IMG/VR virus record: IMGVR_UViG_3300018067_000007
Location: 1-51,276 of that record
DNA: 51,276 bases
Reading direction: 5' to 3' (one strand)
Origin: a virus
Of the stretch, positions 21,518-31,776 are shown one piece after another; positions within the stretch are counted from its first letter, which is position 1; each line of letters opens with the position of its first letter. The position numbers and the translations under genes are program-made. The notes below the pieces were generated by a model. It saw nothing but the letters and a program-made list of their open reading frames with translations, did not search any database and was not told where the DNA came from.

Positions 21518-21545
21518 CCCCCGGCGCTTCGGTGCCGGGGGTTTT
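21518..21545 (+). terminator. Intrinsic terminator
   Basis: Ten-bp stem CCCCCGGCGC with GTGCCGGGGG (one wobble), TTCG loop, then TTTT (21542-21545). It ends the three-gene unit 20880-21503 and separates it from the ParB/Mom block. Confidence 0.9.
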
Positions 21546-21576: not shown

Positions 21577-22134
21577 ATGGCCGACATCGAGAGTGCCGAA
21601 CCCACCAAGCGACGGGCTCGCAAAGCCGACCCCGGCCTATCCATCGTCTATCGGTCGCCCGCCGATCTGACCGCCTACGGACAGAACGCCCGCACCCATA
21701 CGCCCGAGCAGATCGAAGCCATTCGCGCGTCGATCAAGGAGTTCGGCTTCACCAATCCGATCCTCCTGAAAAGCGACGGGGTGACCATCGGCGCAGGCCA
21801 TGCCCGCCACCAGGCCGCGCTCGCCGAAGGGCTCGAGACCGTTCCGACGATCACCCTTCACGGCCTCACCGATGTCCAGTGGCGAGCTTATGTGATCGCC
21901 GACAATCAGCTTGCCATCCAGGGGTCGGGGTGGGACACCGAAATGCTCGCCTCCGAATTGACGCTGCTCAACGAGGAAGGCTTCAACCTTAGCATCGTCG
22001 GCTTCAATGACGACGATCTGGCCGACATGATTAGGGCGCTCGATTTCGAGCCTGTCCCGATTGACCACCAGGGGCGGCTGGACGAGAAGAACCCGGTCAT
22101 CTGCCCCAACTGCAAGCATGTCTTCCACCCCTAA
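21577..22134 (+). CDS. ParB/sulfiredoxin-fold protein at the head of the Mom block
   Basis: The 185-residue protein has a ParB-like N-terminal domain (residues about 25-110): the strand DLTAYGQNARTHTPEQIEAI, then the box GVTIGAGHARHQAALAEGL, corresponding to the ParB GxxR..A motif (here GHARHQAA), followed by a short helical part. In phages this domain often accompanies DNA-modifying enzymes or acts as a nuclease or NTPase. The C-terminus (ICPNCKHVFHP) looks like half a zinc ribbon, CxxC plus a terminal His. Its last 17 bases overlap the first mom-like gene, so the two are co-translated. No ribosome site is clear before ATG 21577. Confidence 0.8.
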   Translation: MADIESAEPTKRRARKADPGLSIVYRSPADLTAYGQNARTHTPEQIEAIRASIKEFGFTNPILLKSDGVTIGAGHARHQAALAEGLETVPTITLHGLTDVQWRAYVIADNQLAIQGSGWDTEMLASELTLLNEEGFNLSIVGFNDDDLADMIRALDFEPVPIDHQGRLDEKNPVICPNCKHVFHP

Positions 22135-22768
22135 GCTACGCCTCGATTGGGCGAGTTCGGAAGCCGCCCGCTTTGCGTGCAAGCGATGGCATTACACCGG
22201 CACCGTCCCGGTCGCCCTGGTCAAGATCGGCATATGGGAAGACGACAAGTTCGCAGGCGTCATCCTGTTCGGTCCTGGTGCAGGCACCTCGACCAGCGGC
22301 ATCCGCTACGGCCTGCGCGAACGCTATGACATGGCCGAGCTCGTCCGCGTGGCGATGGCGCCGTGGCATAAAACACCGGTGTCGCGCTGCATCGCGATAG
22401 CGACCAGGATGCTCTGCAAGCAGTCGCCGAACCTTAGGATGCTGATCTCGTTCGCCGACACCAAACAAGGCCATCATGGCGGGATTTATCAGGCCTGCGG
22501 CTGGACCTATCTCGGTCAGACCGATGGCAATCCGGTGTTCATCATCCACGGCAAGCAGCGCCACAACAAGACGATCACCAAAATCCATGAGGGGAGCCGC
22601 CTGAAATGGCTGCACACCTTCGTGGATCCAAACGCGAAGAAGGTCCGGTTGCCGGTCAAACACCGCTATGTGCTACCGCTGGATGAGGAAATGCGGCAGG
22701 CAATCTTGCCCCTGGCACAGCCTTATCCGAAGCGGGTGGAGGAAAGCCATGCCCTCCAAGCTTCCTAA
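22118..22768 (+). CDS. Mom-like DNA modification protein, copy 1
   Basis: From ATG 22118 (MSSTPKLRLDW), 216 residues. It carries the Mom/GNAT-type pattern: ACKRWHYTGTVP near the start, GVILFGPGAG, then AELVRVAMAPWH, SRCIAIATRML and the hallmark ISFADTKQGHHGGIYQACGW. Phage Mu Mom converts adenine to N6-methylcarbamoyl-adenine and shields DNA from restriction. The C-terminal part (KHRYVLPLDEEMRQAI) is shared by all three copies. It overlaps the ParB-like gene by 17 bases and the second copy by 20, so one message encodes all four proteins. All conserved boxes are present, so the copy looks active. Confidence 0.85.
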   Translation: MSSTPKLRLDWASSEAARFACKRWHYTGTVPVALVKIGIWEDDKFAGVILFGPGAGTSTSGIRYGLRERYDMAELVRVAMAPWHKTPVSRCIAIATRMLCKQSPNLRMLISFADTKQGHHGGIYQACGWTYLGQTDGNPVFIIHGKQRHNKTITKIHEGSRLKWLHTFVDPNAKKVRLPVKHRYVLPLDEEMRQAILPLAQPYPKRVEESHALQAS

Positions 22769-23429
22769 GCTGCGGCTCGATTGGGTGGATGGCGAAGCCG
22801 CCAGGTTCGCTTGCAAGCGGTGGCACTATACCAGGACGATGCCTGTCGCTCCGGTCAAGATCGGGATATGGGAGGATGAGAAGTTCGCCGGGGTGATCTT
22901 GTTCGGGGTCGGGTCGGGCCGCGCCACGCATGGCGGTCGCTTTGGGCTGAAGAAGCACCACGACATCGCCGAGCTTTGCCGGATCGCAATGGCGCCCTGG
23001 CACCAAACGCCCGTCTCGCGCTGCCTGGCGATTGCGACCAGGATGCTCAAGAAGCAGTCCCCCAATCTGCGGATGCTGATATCCTTCGCCGACATTGCCC
23101 AAGGCCACCACGGAGGCATCTACCAGGCGAACGGATGGCTCTATCTCGGCGTCACCGAAAGCGATCTGGCGTTCATCGTCAACGGGAAGCGCAAGCACAA
23201 CAAGACGATCCGCATTGCGGTTGCGAACACCAGGCGGGACAGGCCGCTTGCCGAACGGCGAAAGCCCGCCATCGATTGGCTGCACGAGCATATCGATCCG
23301 AACGCCAGGCGGGTCGAGCTCCCCGGCAAGCATCGCTATGTTTTGCCGCTCGACGATGAAATGCGGAGCCGCCTATTACCGATGGTGCTGCCCTATCCGA
23401 AGCGCGAGAAGGTGTTGGTCGATGCCTAG
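22749..23429 (+). CDS. Mom-like DNA modification protein, copy 2
   Basis: GGAGGAAAGCC precedes ATG 22749; 226 residues. Same boxes as copy 1: FACKRWHYTRTMP, GVILFGVGSG, AELCRIAMAPWH, ISFADIAQGHHGGIYQANGW, ending in KHRYVLPLDDEMRSRL. It differs by an insert around RRDRPLAERRKPAIDWL and by the variable loop after GVGSG. The divergence from copies 1 and 3 is spread over the whole length, so this is an old duplication rather than a recent one. Overlaps both neighbours. Confidence 0.85.
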   Translation: MPSKLPKLRLDWVDGEAARFACKRWHYTRTMPVAPVKIGIWEDEKFAGVILFGVGSGRATHGGRFGLKKHHDIAELCRIAMAPWHQTPVSRCLAIATRMLKKQSPNLRMLISFADIAQGHHGGIYQANGWLYLGVTESDLAFIVNGKRKHNKTIRIAVANTRRDRPLAERRKPAIDWLHEHIDPNARRVELPGKHRYVLPLDDEMRSRLLPMVLPYPKREKVLVDA

Positions 23430-24102
23430 CCTGCGGCTCGATTGGGTCGGTGCCGACGCTGCGCGCTTCGCCTGCAAGCGATGGCACTACACCCGCACGA
23501 CCTCGGTCGCCTCGGTCAAGATCGGGGTGTGGGAGGACGGCCATTTCATCGGCGTGATCCTGTTCGGCCTCGGAGCAGGCAATGCGACCAGCGGCATCCG
23601 ATTTGGCTTGCGGCACCATCACGACATCGCCGAGCTGGTCCGCATCGCGCTTGCGCCCTGGCACAAGACGCCGGTTTCCAGGTGCGTCGCCATCGCCATC
23701 AAGATGCTGCGGAAGCAATCGCCTGGGCTGCGGATGGTGATCTCGTTCGCCGACACCGGCCAGGGACACCACGGCGGCATCTACCAGGCAGGCGGCTGGA
23801 CCTATCTCGGCATGTCCACCGGGGAGGTCGCCTACATCGTCAACGGGAAGCGCAAGCACAGCAAGACGATAGCCGATATGGGGCTGGGCGACCGGATGAA
23901 GGGGCTACGCGAGCATTTGGATCCGAACGCGAAGCGGGTCAGATTGCCTGGAAAGCATCGCTACGTCTTGCCCCTGGACGACGAGATTAGGGCGCGTATA
24001 TTGCCGCTGGCACAAGCCTACCCCAAGCGTGCGAAAGATCAGGACGCCGGATACCCTTCGGCGCTGGGCGGTGAAACTCCGACCCGCACGCTCCAACTTT
24101 AG
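23422..24102 (+). CDS. Mom-like DNA modification protein, copy 3
   Basis: ATG 23422 lies inside the end of copy 2; 226 residues. Conserved boxes: FACKRWHYTRTTS, GVILFGLGAG, AELVRIALAPWH, ISFADTGQGHHGGIYQAGGW, KHRYVLPLDDEIRARI. It has a unique 20-residue C-terminal extension after AYPKR. It ends convergently with the leftward gene at 24099, the two stop codons overlapping. Specific activity could differ from copies 1 and 2 in target sequence or partner; that is not visible from sequence. Confidence 0.85.
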   Translation: MPSLRLDWVGADAARFACKRWHYTRTTSVASVKIGVWEDGHFIGVILFGLGAGNATSGIRFGLRHHHDIAELVRIALAPWHKTPVSRCVAIAIKMLRKQSPGLRMVISFADTGQGHHGGIYQAGGWTYLGMSTGEVAYIVNGKRKHSKTIADMGLGDRMKGLREHLDPNAKRVRLPGKHRYVLPLDDEIRARILPLAQAYPKRAKDQDAGYPSALGGETPTRTLQL

Positions 24103-24370: not shown

Positions 24371-24790
24371 TCAATCGATGCCGGAATACATCGTTTGCAA
24401 GATTTTGCGCCCGAGCGTCGGCATCCCGCTCACCCGGAAAGCCTGCCAAAATGGCCGAGCGATGAGCCGACCAGGCAGCGCCTTGAGGCCGAGGCGACCC
24501 GCGACGACGTAGCGATGGCTTCCATCGACGAGCGTGTGGGTGCCGTCGCCCATCTCGATCAGCAAGATCGGCTCGTTGAGCTCACGCCAGCCGATGCGCG
24601 CCAGGCGATGCGGCTCGACGCTGTTCTCGCGGGCGAAGATTTCGGCCTGGTCGGGGTCGATGTTGATGCCGATGACATCGACCCGACCGAGCGCCCAGGT
24701 CGTGAGCATATCGACGGCGATGGTATATTCGCCGCCTCCCGCAGGCGCGAAGGTGAAGACGTTGCCGAGTACCTTGTCGATGGGGATCAT
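24371..24790 (-). CDS. ParB-like-fold hypothetical protein, 139 aa
   Basis: GGAGGAACGA precedes ATG 24790. The pattern LIEMGDGTHTLVDGSHRYVVAG (two parts, residues 77-98) is the ParB/Srx-type core in which DGSHR replaces the usual GxxR box. It is thus a second, shorter ParB-fold protein close to the Mom block, but on the opposite strand. Nuclease or NTPase activity is not established for this subgroup. Confidence 0.65.
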   Translation of the reverse strand: MIPIDKVLGNVFTFAPAGGGEYTIAVDMLTTWALGRVDVIGINIDPDQAEIFARENSVEPHRLARIGWRELNEPILLIEMGDGTHTLVDGSHRYVVAGRLGLKALPGRLIARPFWQAFRVSGMPTLGRKILQTMYSGID

Positions 24791-27501: not shown

Positions 27502-30500
27502 GTGGTCACCAATGTCGTCTTCCTGACAGCGACGGGGGCCGGGACTTCTAGCTTCCCGGTTGACTGGGGTGCGCCCTGGACGATCGAGATTATCGGGGCG
27601 GGTGGCGGTGGCGGCAAGTCGGCCAACGGCTCGGGCTGCGGCGGCGGTGGTGGCGCTTATGCGAAGTCCACCGATGCGACGTTCACGGCGACGCCAGGGG
27701 CGACTTTCTTCTACAATATCGCGGCGGGAGGGGCTGGCGCTACCACAGGCGGCAATGCTGGCACGACCGCTGGCGATACGTGGCTCAATATCGCCTCCAA
27801 TGTCAGCCCCGGCCTGCCCAGCGCTGGCGTCATGGCGAAGGGCGGTGTGGGCGGCAGCGCAACGTCGACCGGCGGCGCTGGTGGTGATCGCCTCACCTGC
27901 ACTGGCACGACCCTCAATTCCGGGGGCGCAGGCGGCGCGGGCACCAACGCCGCCAACAGTCGCGGCGGCGCGGGCGGCGGCGGTGCGGGCGGCAGGCGCG
28001 GCAATGGCGGCGTTGGTGCAGCGGCGGCGGGGAGCAATAACCGGGGCGGTGGCGGCGGCGGCGGCTCGGGCGGGGGCACTTCGGGGACGGTCGGCGGGGC
28101 AGGCACGACAGCCGCATCGGCGACGGGTGGAGCTGGCGGCAACAATGCCTCGGGCGTCGGTAGCGGGGCCGGATCGGCTTCGGGCGTCGGCAATGGCGGG
28201 CTGTCGGGCGGCGGCGGTGGCGGCAGTTTCACATCATCGACATCGACGACCTATGTAGGCAGCGCGGGCGGCAATGGCGGCGACTATATCGCGACCGCTG
28301 GCGGGACTGCCGGGGCGGGCGGCGGTGCTGGCGGTGCGGGCTCGACCCAGCTTACCACGGGGGCACCGGTCGGTGGTGCCGGGGCAACCGGAGGCCTTTA
28401 CGGCGGTGGAGGTTCAGGCGGCGGTGGCGGCAATGCCAGCGGCACAGCAGGCAATGGCGGCAATGGTGCCCAAGGCATCATCGTTCTCACTTATACCGTC
28501 ACCGCTGTCGGTGTCGTCGGCACCGCCAACAAGACCCTGGCGGCGCTGACCGGCACCTCGACGGCGGTGGCCCCGGTTGCGGCAACCGCGAGCAAGACGC
28601 TCGCAGCCTTGACCGGGACATCGACAGCGGTCGCGCCGGTCGCTGCCATCGCCAGCAAGACGCTTGAGGCGATGACCGGGACGGCGACCGGGGCAGGACC
28701 GCCGACGACCGTGACCGGCACGGCCAGCAAGACCCTCGCGCCGCTCGTCCCATCATCAAAGGCAGGCCTGCCGCGCTACGCGGCGATGCAGACCAAGACG
28801 ATCCTCGTCACGGCGACCGGAGCCTCATCGCGTACCGTCCCAGCCGATTGGGGAGCGCCCTGGACCATCGAGCTCGTCGGCGGTGGCGGTGGCGCTCGCA
28901 AGGGGGCAGACGGTACCAACAGCGGTGCGCGCGGCGGCTCGGGTGGTGCCTTTTCAAAGATCACCAGCGCCGATGCCACGATCAATCCGGGCGGCACTCT
29001 CTACATGTCGGTCGGCGCAGGCGGCGCTGGCGCAACTTCCAGCGCAGGCCAGGATGGTGGCGCTGGCGGCGATACATGGCTGAACGCCGCCAGCAATGCA
29101 GCACCGACGCTGGTGACGCAGGGCGCTCTTGCCAAGGGCGGGCTCGGCGGTTCGACCAGCGGCACCCAGGCGGGCGGCGCTTCGGCGAGCGGGGTCGGCT
29201 CGACCAGGACCGGTGGCGGCAGCAACAGCTCGAGCTTTGGCGGCGGCGGTGGCGGTGCTGGTGGGCATCGCGGCGCTGGTGGTGCAGCTGGTGCCGGTAG
29301 CACCACGACTGCCGGTGGCGGCGGCGGCGGTTCCGGCGAAGGCGTCTTCGGTTCGGTCGGCGGGGCCGGGACGAGCGGATCGGCAACCACAGGCGGCACT
29401 GGCGGCACCAGTGCCGGTGGCAGCCTCGGCGGCGCTGGCGGGATCGGTGCCAACCCGGGCAATGCGGCAGGGCTTGGCGCAGGCGGCGGCGGCGGCGGCA
29501 TCGGATCGGGGGCCTTTACCGGCGGCGATGGCGGCGATGGCGTCTTCTACCTCGACACCAATAGCAATGTGAGGGCCGGTGCGGGCGGTGGCGGTGGTGG
29601 TGGCTCGACCAATACCGATGCAGGTGGGACCGGCGGCGTCGGCGGCGATGGCGGCTATGGCGGCGGCGGCGGATCGGGCGGCGCTGGGCTCGCGGTCAAC
29701 GGCAATGGCGGCAATGGCGGGCAGGGCTTCATCGCCATCACCTACACGGTCACCAATCTCAAGACCGTTCTCATCACCACGGTCGGAGCCTCGTCGGGCA
29801 CCTTCCCTTCCGATTGGGGAGCGCCGTGGACAATCGAGGTGATTGGCGCGGGCTCGGGCGCTGGCATGTCGGCCAATGGCGCTGGCGCGGGCGGTGGCGG
29901 TGGCGCCTATTCTCGGATCACCGATCTCGATCTGTCGATTTCGGCTGGTGCGACGTATTGGGCCAGCGTCGGCGATGGTGGTGCTGGCGCAACGGTGGCG
30001 GGCAATGGCGGCGGCGGTGGCGGTCAGACCTGGTTGAATATCGCCAGCAATGCGGCTCCGACGCTGATCTCGCAGGGCGTCAAGGCCCTGGCGGGCACTG
30101 GCGGCTCGGCGACGACCAGCGGCGGGACGGGCGGCTTTGCGTTCAGCGGGGTTGGCTCGGTCAAATATGGCGGTGGCGGTGGTGGCAACGGCCTGTCAAC
30201 CGGCAACGCGCGCGGCGGCGGCGGTGGCGGTGGCGCAGCAGGCCAGAAAGGCACTGGCGGGATCGGTGGCGCTACCCCATCGAGCAACAGCCGGGGCGGC
30301 GGAGGCGGTGGCGGATCGGGTGCGGGTTTCATCGGCACGAATGGCGGGCCGGGGCTCGCCGCAGCATCGGCGACCGGAGCCTTTGGTGGGCATAACGCAT
30401 CGGGCAGCGGAGCCGGTGCGGGCAATAGTACGGGCAGCGGCGCGACCGGCCTGAATGGTGGCGGCGGCGCTGGCGCGTGGCATAACACCGCCTCGATCAC

Positions 30501-31776
30501 GACCTATCCCGGAACGGTGGGCGGGTTCGGCACCGAGTGGACGCAGACCTCGGACAGCACGCCTGCGGGCGCTGGCGGTGGTGCGGGCGGCGGCGCCTCG
30601 ACATCGACGACGACCGGGGCTCCGGTCGGTGGCGCGGGTGCCACCGGCGGGCTTTACGGCGGCGGTGGATCGGGCGGTGCTGGTGGCAATAGTTCGGGCT
30701 CGGCGGGCGTCGGCGGGAATGGCGCGCAGGGCATCATTGTCCTCACCTATACGCCGACCGTCGTTTCGGGCGGGCCTGTCACCGGCACGGCATCGAAGAC
30801 GCTCGGCGCGCTGACCGGAACGGCGCTCGGCAAGGTCGCGGTCAAGGGGGCGACGACCTACACGCTCGCGCCGCTGATCGGGCTGTCGCACGGTGGTGCG
30901 CCTGGCGGCGTCGGCATTGCCGTCAAGACCCTCGCTCCGCTGACATCGACTGCCTCGGGCAAGCTGCTCGTCCAGGGTGCGACGACCAGGACGCTCGCGC
31001 CGTTGAGCTCGACCGCGACAGGCAAGGTGGCGGTCGCGGGAACGACGAGCAAGACCCTAGCACCGCTGACCGGGACTTCCCACGGCGGCGCGCCCAGCAC
31101 GGTTGGCATCGCCAGCAAGACGCTCGCCCCGCTGACTTCGACATCGACCGCCAAGGCTGCGGTGCGGGCGCAGGCGAGCAAGACCCTCGGCACGCTGACA
31201 TCGACCGCGCTCGGCAAGACGCCGGTTGTTGCGACCGCATCGAAGGCGCTCGCCCCGCTGACCGGGCTTTCGCATGGCGGCGCACCAGGCGGCGTCGGTA
31301 TTGCTACCAAGACACTCGCAGCGCTGACGGGCGCGGCCTCGGGCAAGGTCGCAGTCAAAGCGATAGCGACCAAGACGCTTGGCACCCTGGTCCCCTTCGC
31401 GCGGGCGGGGGCACCGCCTGGTGTCGGCATCGCCAGCAAGACGCTCGCGCCATTGGGTCGCTTCGCCAGGGGCGGGGCACCACAGGCCACCGGCATCGCC
31501 AGCAAGACCCTCGCGCCGCTTGGCAGATCGGCCATCGGCAAGGTCGCAGTCAAAGGTACGACGGCGAAGACACTGGCGCTGCTGACTAGCACCGGGCTTG
31601 GCCGGTTGGCGGTGAAGGGCACCGCGACCAGGACGCTCGCACCGCTGACCAGCATCGCATCATCGATCATTCCGATCGGCACCCCACCAGAACGCATTGC
31701 CTATACCAAGGGCGGGCTGAAGGATGGACGCCAGGCATCACCGGCAGTAAGCAGCCGGATAGCGGAGGCAAACTGA
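27502..31776 (+). CDS. Giant glycine-rich repeat protein, probable adhesin or virion fibre, 1424 aa
   Basis: GTG 27502. Three modules each begin with an ATGA-S-S-F-P-x-D-W-G-A-P-W-T-I-E type box (residues about 8, 434 and 754) and run on for 250-330 residues of GGG-rich sequence ending in GGLYGGGGSGG...GAQGIIVLTYT-like strands. Linkers (about 337-425) and the C-terminal third (about 1090-1405) consist of a degenerate 17-20 residue repeat around SKTLAPLTGTA and KVAVKG, with HGGAPGGVGIA variants. Polyglycine sheets are known in phage S16 gp38-type adhesins. Modules this long without Cys or signal peptide fit a virion-attached fibre. Placement beside head genes rather than tail genes is unusual, and its true location is unknown. 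Confidence 0.75.
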   Translation: MVTNVVFLTATGAGTSSFPVDWGAPWTIEIIGAGGGGGKSANGSGCGGGGGAYAKSTDATFTATPGATFFYNIAAGGAGATTGGNAGTTAGDTWLNIASNVSPGLPSAGVMAKGGVGGSATSTGGAGGDRLTCTGTTLNSGGAGGAGTNAANSRGGAGGGGAGGRRGNGGVGAAAAGSNNRGGGGGGGSGGGTSGTVGGAGTTAASATGGAGGNNASGVGSGAGSASGVGNGGLSGGGGGGSFTSSTSTTYVGSAGGNGGDYIATAGGTAGAGGGAGGAGSTQLTTGAPVGGAGATGGLYGGGGSGGGGGNASGTAGNGGNGAQGIIVLTYTVTAVGVVGTANKTLAALTGTSTAVAPVAATASKTLAALTGTSTAVAPVAAIASKTLEAMTGTATGAGPPTTVTGTASKTLAPLVPSSKAGLPRYAAMQTKTILVTATGASSRTVPADWGAPWTIELVGGGGGARKGADGTNSGARGGSGGAFSKITSADATINPGGTLYMSVGAGGAGATSSAGQDGGAGGDTWLNAASNAAPTLVTQGALAKGGLGGSTSGTQAGGASASGVGSTRTGGGSNSSSFGGGGGGAGGHRGAGGAAGAGSTTTAGGGGGGSGEGVFGSVGGAGTSGSATTGGTGGTSAGGSLGGAGGIGANPGNAAGLGAGGGGGGIGSGAFTGGDGGDGVFYLDTNSNVRAGAGGGGGGGSTNTDAGGTGGVGGDGGYGGGGGSGGAGLAVNGNGGNGGQGFIAITYTVTNLKTVLITTVGASSGTFPSDWGAPWTIEVIGAGSGAGMSANGAGAGGGGGAYSRITDLDLSISAGATYWASVGDGGAGATVAGNGGGGGGQTWLNIASNAAPTLISQGVKALAGTGGSATTSGGTGGFAFSGVGSVKYGGGGGGNGLSTGNARGGGGGGGAAGQKGTGGIGGATPSSNSRGGGGGGGSGAGFIGTNGGPGLAAASATGAFGGHNASGSGAGAGNSTGSGATGLNGGGGAGAWHNTASITTYPGTVGGFGTEWTQTSDSTPAGAGGGAGGGASTSTTTGAPVGGAGATGGLYGGGGSGGAGGNSSGSAGVGGNGAQGIIVLTYTPTVVSGGPVTGTASKTLGALTGTALGKVAVKGATTYTLAPLIGLSHGGAPGGVGIAVKTLAPLTSTASGKLLVQGATTRTLAPLSSTATGKVAVAGTTSKTLAPLTGTSHGGAPSTVGIASKTLAPLTSTSTAKAAVRAQASKTLGTLTSTALGKTPVVATASKALAPLTGLSHGGAPGGVGIATKTLAALTGAASGKVAVKAIATKTLGTLVPFARAGAPPGVGIASKTLAPLGRFARGGAPQATGIASKTLAPLGRSAIGKVAVKGTTAKTLALLTSTGLGRLAVKGTATRTLAPLTSIASSIIPIGTPPERIAYTKGGLKDGRQASPAVSSRIAEAN

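Follow-up and report, generated by a model that had tools for sequence, protein, structure and literature searches.

The locus described here raises the question of why a phage would carry three genes for Mom-type DNA modification enzymes in a row behind a single ParB-like gene, and what donor such enzymes might use. It lies in a 51,276-base viral record (IMG/VR IMGVR_UViG_3300018067_000007, positions 1 to 51,276; hereafter, the window), which represents one virus and holds the terminase, portal, capsid, tape-measure and tail genes of a tailed, siphovirus-like phage. From the open reading frames (ORFs), the order at 21577-24102 is parB, mom1, mom2 and mom3, head to tail. An earlier note on this DNA had described three intact, overlapping Mom paralogues behind a ParB-fold gene, and we confirmed that observation; the three-mom array is real, but the note overlooked a tRNA-like element at 24027-24095, within the 3' end of mom3. 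No other part of the locus tells us as much as this RNA element. In many of the phages that we surveyed, the last mom ends in a stretch that encodes a conserved, covarying, noncanonical tRNA-Gly-like RNA.

The end of mom3 reads GCGTGCG ... CGCACGC T CCA, in which positions 24027-24033 pair with 24085-24091 to form the acceptor stem, followed by U73 at 24092 and an encoded CCA at 24093-24095. The anticodon is ACC (24053-24055), a U is present at position 33, the T stem has a bulged A, and there is no D arm. ARAGORN and Rfam did not detect the element, Rfam giving only chance matches there. A covariance model (R2) built exclusively from 76-nt members, with the window excluded, returned the 69-nt window element as its sole match in the 51 kb (E 4e-10). 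We found no such element at the 3' end of mom1. The 3' end of mom2 (window 23401-23475) aligned faintly with the element from the expected start, and 15 of 300 shuffled sequences aligned equally well; judging from the sequence, a duplication may have left a decayed copy here.

We gathered more than 200 distinct mom loci, which are related to one another, so the counts that follow are not independent events. The element was present at the mom 3' end in 153 of 175 ParB-mom loci versus four of 26 mom loci without ParB (Fisher p about 1e-13, a nominal value since the loci are related). When we searched without any demand on base identity, 119 of 212 mom 3' ends had a perfect 7-bp stem plus NCCA; the base at position 73 was T in all 119, and the stem began with GCG in 117, with 43 distinct stems represented. 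Among control ORF ends, stem plus NCCA occurred in 7/2394, and the combination of T73 and GCG in none. Applied to 98 mom loci on which it had not been trained, R2 gave 84 matches, of which 82 lay immediately 3' of mom, while in 44 mom-less ParB loci it found one canonical tRNA-Thr and one marginal match. Every tRNA that ARAGORN called no more than 100 bp from mom, in all loci scanned, was a tRNA-Gly. An unannotated tRNA-Gly-like element (TCC) also lies at the mom 3' end in the Arthrobacter phages Martha and Wyborn (survey loci L091, 3598-3671, and L310, 2101-2174).

The elements fall into two size classes, 66-71 nt and 74-78 nt, for each of which we made an ungapped alignment and compared the number of double changes with shuffles and slid controls, both of which it far exceeded. 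In one alignment (A4), 98.7% of the cells were paired, with 83 double changes against 23 +- 4 when shuffled; in the other (A5), 97.8% were paired, with 158 double changes against 41 +- 5. Double changes were seen at 10 of 10 pairs of helix 2 in A4, and at all five anticodon stem pairs, three of the four D stem pairs and three of the five T stem pairs in A5. Outside the covarying positions, U73, G1-C72, C2-G71 and G3-C70 are fixed across the family, and 103 of 105 elements have an NCC anticodon. Glycine identity in bacteria is set by U73, the first three acceptor pairs, C35 and C36, and the element family carries this entire set (U73, G1-C72, C2-G71, G3-C70, C35 and C36).

The family has the fold of a tRNA, with a 7-bp acceptor stem, anticodon and T arms and CCA, and it does not hold on to the features that serve translation. 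U33 is not a constant of the family, few T loops read TTC, leaving the TPsiC loop unconserved, and the T stem is irregular, with a bulged A in 141 of 145 elements. The D arm is confined to the 76-nt class and is missing from the short class, to which the 69-nt element of the window belongs; about half of all the elements have none. None of the 12 element sources tested reached the Rfam tRNA threshold.

Depending on the phage, the mom ORF traverses the element in all three frames, which argues that its conservation is not due to the protein sequence. In mom3, the tail encoded by the element is predicted to be disordered in an AlphaFold2 (AF2) model (predicted local distance difference test [pLDDT] score 51-66); together with the varying frames, this suggests that selection holds the RNA and not the protein. 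In multi-mom arrays, the element is found once, after the last mom (non-last moms with an element, 0/6). Microbacterium phage Appa has a tRNA-Gly in antisense directly after mom, and locus L299 has one upstream of a mom. A shared, trans-acting RNA best fits its single occurrence per array and these antisense and upstream placements.

The features of the window locus are as follows.

21518..21545, plus strand: terminator-like hairpin with a T run, directly upstream of parB, read from the sequence.
21577..22134, plus strand: ParB/Srx-fold protein of 185 residues without a helix-turn-helix (HTH) domain, Mom-associated (PHROG 620, E 2e-42; AF2 model; PDB matches).
22063..22131, plus strand: ParB C-terminal tail DHQGRLDEKNPVICPNCKHVFHP with a CPxC knuckle, a motif shared with mom-adjacent ParBs.
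22118..22768, plus strand: mom1, 216 residues (PF25680, E 8e-40), with a 3' end that lacks the tRNA element.
22749..23429, plus strand: mom2, 226 residues (PF25680, E 5e-40), with no intact tRNA element.
23422..24102, plus strand: mom3, 226 residues (PF25680, E 1e-42), of which residues ~201-226 are encoded by the RNA element.
24027..24095, plus strand: tRNA-Gly-like RNA of 69 nt inside the mom3 3' end (covariance model R2; covariation on A4).

The hairpin directly upstream suggests that parB is the start of the operon. The ORFs overlap by 17 nt (parB/mom1), 20 nt (mom1/mom2) and 8 nt (mom2/mom3), so the translational coupling of the four genes proposed in the earlier note is plausible. Downstream, an ORF on the minus strand (24371-24790, 139 residues) has no PHROG match and contains a stretch, DGSHRYVVAGRLG, that on visual inspection resembles ParB/Srx. 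An ORF of 1424 residues (27502-31776), placed after the mom operon and before the capsid genes, also has no PHROG match.

The three Mom proteins match PF25680 at 137-146 bits (cut-off 27) and PHROG 1384, 'Mom-like DNA modification protein', at E < 1e-43, and they are the sole Mom domains within the record. They are 67-68% identical to one another, and a second comparison put mom1 and mom2 at 67-70% identity to mom3. All three have the ISFAD..QGHHGGIYQA box in common, keep every family-invariant Mom residue and retain, by alignment, the equivalents of Mu Y49, R101, S114, D139 and Y149 (numbering of the 231-residue Mu Mom). At the S114-equivalent position, the chain in the Mu Mom crystal structure 8bv8, described as 'inactive mutant S124A', has alanine. 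The AF2 model of mom3 (pLDDT 91) gave 8bv8 as its top PDB match (E 1e-11, TM 0.66-0.73), with CoA-binding GNAT enzymes next. The prediction of three full-length paralogues with an intact hallmark box was thus borne out by both databases and the alignment, and the comparison with Mu Mom that had been proposed as a check pointed, for mom3, to a GNAT/Mom fold with retained active-site residues. For every pair, synonymous divergence (dS) is about 1.0-1.25 and the ratio of nonsynonymous to synonymous divergence (dN/dS) is 0.20-0.24, with no identical tracts. These values exclude an assembly artefact, as the note had argued from the divergence of the copies, and indicate that the copies are old and have all been retained. 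In a comparison with 81 other Moms they group as a single clade (support 99) and therefore arose by duplication within the lineage of the window phage. We conclude from the sequences that mom1-3 encode intact GNAT-fold Mom enzymes under purifying selection. The suggestion that each copy performs a different side-chain chemistry did not hold up well: it is unlikely because all catalytic residues, and one glycine-tRNA-like element, are shared. Differences in target sequence and hetero-oligomers, the other suggestions, are both possible.

Whether the four-gene order recurs in other phages has a divided answer, in that the ParB-mom pair is common, while within this sample three tandem local duplicates, and indeed any ParB-linked triple, were found in the window only. 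Among the sampled loci, ParB-linked mom pairs occur at L059, L227 and L247, where the two copies are not sisters, and arrays without ParB occur at L230, L265, L282 and L241. Three of the latter contain tandem pairs of a second, very divergent, ParB-less Mom lineage (L265, 1394-6064; L282, 1107-5777; L230, 9081-10362); L265 and L282 have a third Mom copy a few kb from the pair, and in L230 a tRNA-Gly lies about 1.2 kb further downstream. A second, very divergent Mom also lies elsewhere on the contig at two loci with a ParB-mom pair (L036, 2391-2999, minus strand; L195, 444-995). Jumbo phage PA5oct is reported to have five momylating enzymes (PMC7824862), a count that the Pfam Mom profile did not reproduce, giving only one sub-threshold match; PA5oct also differs from the window in having no tandem ParB-linked mom array. 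In bacterial genomes Mom is rare: in one phylum, 5 of 398 scored above the cut-off, with no tandem arrays. Four apparent two-mom loci (L005, L090, L275 and L281) each proved to be one mom interrupted by a change of frame, and we left them out of the array count. In three of these, which are unrelated, the change falls at nearly one place (hidden Markov model positions about 123-135; L090, 3004-3602; L275, 6697-7300; L281, 1410-2020), and two of the three retain an intact tRNA element. The split could be due to sequencing error or programmed frameshifting.

The ParB-Mom pair is a common phage gene pair: parB directly precedes mom in 80 of 80 viral loci of our first survey, and the pair also occurs in Enterococcus, Microbacterium and Arthrobacter phages. 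Of 97 mom-adjacent ParBs, 96 had a tail motif, QGxLDEKx..CPxC, that was absent from ParBs fused to DNA methyltransferases. The window ParB ends in CPNCKHVFH, in agreement with the CxxC..H tail noted earlier. Its Pfam ParB_N match is slightly below the cut-off, and its AF2 model (pLDDT 89) matches ParB/Noc CTPase N-domains with bound nucleotide in the PDB (E about 1e-6), with a ParB/Noc-like nucleotide-binding domain and a tail that forms a small ordered hairpin. We found no HTH centromere-binding or dimerization domain in the 185 residues, which comprise ParB_N and the tail only. Given its mom linkage, its Mom-specific tail and the lack of an HTH, we take the window ParB to be a part of the module and not a partition protein. 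From sequence comparisons, such ParBs are very probably dedicated partners of the Mom module. The absence of a Com-like gene next to the moms, also remarked upon earlier, was borne out at this locus, where the gene upstream of mom1 is ParB-fold with a single CPxC knuckle. As for the note's idea that ParB could take the partner role of Com, the CPxC pattern is the sole likeness between the ParB tail and Com, Mu Com being also a zinc-finger protein. By analogy, the two may have a common RNA- or Mom-binding role.

We have moderate confidence that the locus is a ParB-Mom(x3)-tRNA-Gly module for adenine hypermodification of phage DNA, in which the donor for Mom is the element RNA charged with glycine. 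That a mom-encoded tRNA is a dedicated aminoacyl donor for DNA base modification, an aminoacyl-tRNA-dependent hypermodification, we put at a little better than even. To our knowledge, no DNA modification has been shown to use an aminoacyl-tRNA. The glycine-donor proposal follows from the known Mom product, adenine-N6-glycinamide; that of Mu Mom is deoxyadenosine glycinamide (Swinton 1983, as cited in PMC3146451). RNA processing, charging, glycine transfer, rearrangement and a split of targets among the Moms are steps that we infer. The RNA would be cut from the operon transcript and glycylated by the host glycyl-tRNA synthetase (GlyRS), whose identity elements are retained, and the odd T arm, the lack of U33 and the frequent lack of a D arm would keep it out of translation as a dedicated glycine donor. 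Mom would then move glycine from the RNA onto adenine N6, and the N6-glycyl adduct would rearrange intramolecularly (Smiles-type, through a five-membered ring) to N6-CH2-CO-NH2, adenine glycinamide. ParB, likely a nucleotide-dependent DNA clamp, would bring Mom to the DNA. The three Moms, having one ParB and one donor RNA in common, would most likely differ in the sequence recognized around the target adenine, and three target preferences would therefore block more restriction enzymes than a single Mom. GNAT-fold enzymes that use aminoacyl-tRNA include the Fem and Aat families, and in staphylococcal cell-wall synthesis a non-protein tRNA-Gly is the glycine donor for GNAT-fold Fem enzymes. The likeness extends to a dedicated tRNA-Gly with an altered T arm, from which a GNAT-fold transferase takes its glycine; the acceptor there is a cell-wall precursor, whereas in our proposal it is DNA adenine.

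Several points weigh against a glycyl-tRNA donor. Because pairing was in part a criterion for choosing the acceptor stem, that stem is biased as structural evidence, and unbiased evidence comes from the D, anticodon and T helices and the R2 matches only; the kinship of the loci likewise keeps their counts from being independent events. Some long-class elements do keep U33, and the rearrangement step is chemistry on paper. No element was found near mom in Mu, Listeria LP-026, Proteus P2-71, Bacillus Riggi or Pseudomonas JD024, all without ParB, or near the mom of phiEf11, which does have ParB; if Mom takes glycine from tRNA, these moms would need host glycyl-tRNA. Published proposals favour an acyl-coenzyme A (acyl-CoA) donor, such as glycyl-CoA (PMC7824862).

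With regard to the division of targets alone, the three Moms might instead provide dosage or redundancy without distinct targets, as their identical catalytic residues and their origin by local duplication in one clade would allow. Since about 33% protein divergence and a dN/dS of about 0.2 in every pair reflect a long retention that is hard to explain by dosage alone, we find this rather unlikely. For the element itself, the strongest competitor is a cis signal in the mom transcript, through which binding of GlyRS, RNase P or the CCA-adding enzyme controls translation, processing or stability while Mom uses another donor. The element lies within the mom frame at the operon 3' end, where excision would clip the mRNA, and Mu mom is likewise under post-transcriptional control, with Com binding its mRNA (PMC6483171). 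A signal acting purely in the mRNA could do without the NCC anticodon, the complete set of GlyRS identity elements and a CCA in the encoded sequence, however, and the antisense tRNA-Gly in Appa and the upstream one in L299 are compatible only with action in trans; we consider a cis role improbable. Slightly less credible still is the idea that Mom uses acyl-CoA (glycyl- or acetyl-CoA) and that the RNA guides or recruits Mom or meets some other need for glycine. The GNAT fold with its CoA-binding PDB neighbours and the glycyl-CoA suggestion speak for it, but it leaves the constant glycine specificity of the linked RNA unexplained, and GNAT-fold enzymes that take aminoacyl-tRNA are well known from Fem and Aat. 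That the element is an ordinary phage tRNA aiding the translation of glycine codons is very unlikely: near-canonical members called by ARAGORN do exist (L237, L243 and L310), but the translation features listed above are not conserved, with the T-stem bulge fixed and the Rfam threshold reached by none of the 12 sources tested, and the RNA is always specific for glycine and nearly always adjoins mom. The 3' ends of tRNA genes are common attachment sites. Even so, and although the Dehalococcoides islands bearing the element are integrative, a relic of integration into tRNA genes can be dismissed as barely credible, since the entire cloverleaf covaries and not the 3' half alone, the element sits within mom and not next to an integrase, and those islands integrate at ssrA rather than at tRNA-Gly (PMC3146451).

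Among known systems, Mu Com-Mom shares with the window the Mom fold, the active-site residues, 8bv8 being the best PDB match, and a probable anti-restriction adenine modification. Mu differs in having one mom and the Com zinc-finger translational activator, with no ParB and no tRNA-like element; the window has no Mu-type com-mom operon, in which a Com zinc-finger gene overlaps mom. The ParB-Mom module is also known from Dehalococcoides ssrA islands: in 16 of them, a mom homologue next to parB contains a 76-bp sequence resembling tRNA-Gly ('DCC'), which is usually annotated as a pseudo-tRNA and was given no function (McMurdie et al. 2011, PMC3146451). Those are bacterial islands with a single mom, whereas the window has three moms and a short element lacking the D arm, and to that report we add phages of many hosts and the covariation and identity-element evidence. 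In relatives of the window ParB that have no mom, a fusion to an N6/N4 DNA methyltransferase is frequent. These ParB-N6_N4_Mtase phage fusions likewise join a closely related ParB domain to a DNA-modifying enzyme, but the enzyme is a methyltransferase and they have neither the CPxC tail nor a mom-type tRNA element.

The element was thus already known from the Dehalococcoides islands, and we found no other report of it in the open-licence literature. That literature, as it concerns momylation donors, also yielded no report of a tRNA donor for Mom, subscription papers and most preprints being outside its scope. The RNA would add a family that Rfam lacks, and the three-Mom set should be useful for studying how Mom chooses its target sequence. 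Adenine glycinamide has been known since 1983, and we found no settled donor for it in the same literature; a glycine-specific tRNA-like RNA in the moms of many phages points to glycyl-tRNA. This idea is directly testable in cultured phages, namely, Arthrobacter phages Martha and Wyborn, Microbacterium phage Appa and Salinibacter phage B2_17. If true, it would account for the making of adenine glycinamide by a GNAT-fold enzyme and would link the charged tRNAs of translation to the modification of DNA.

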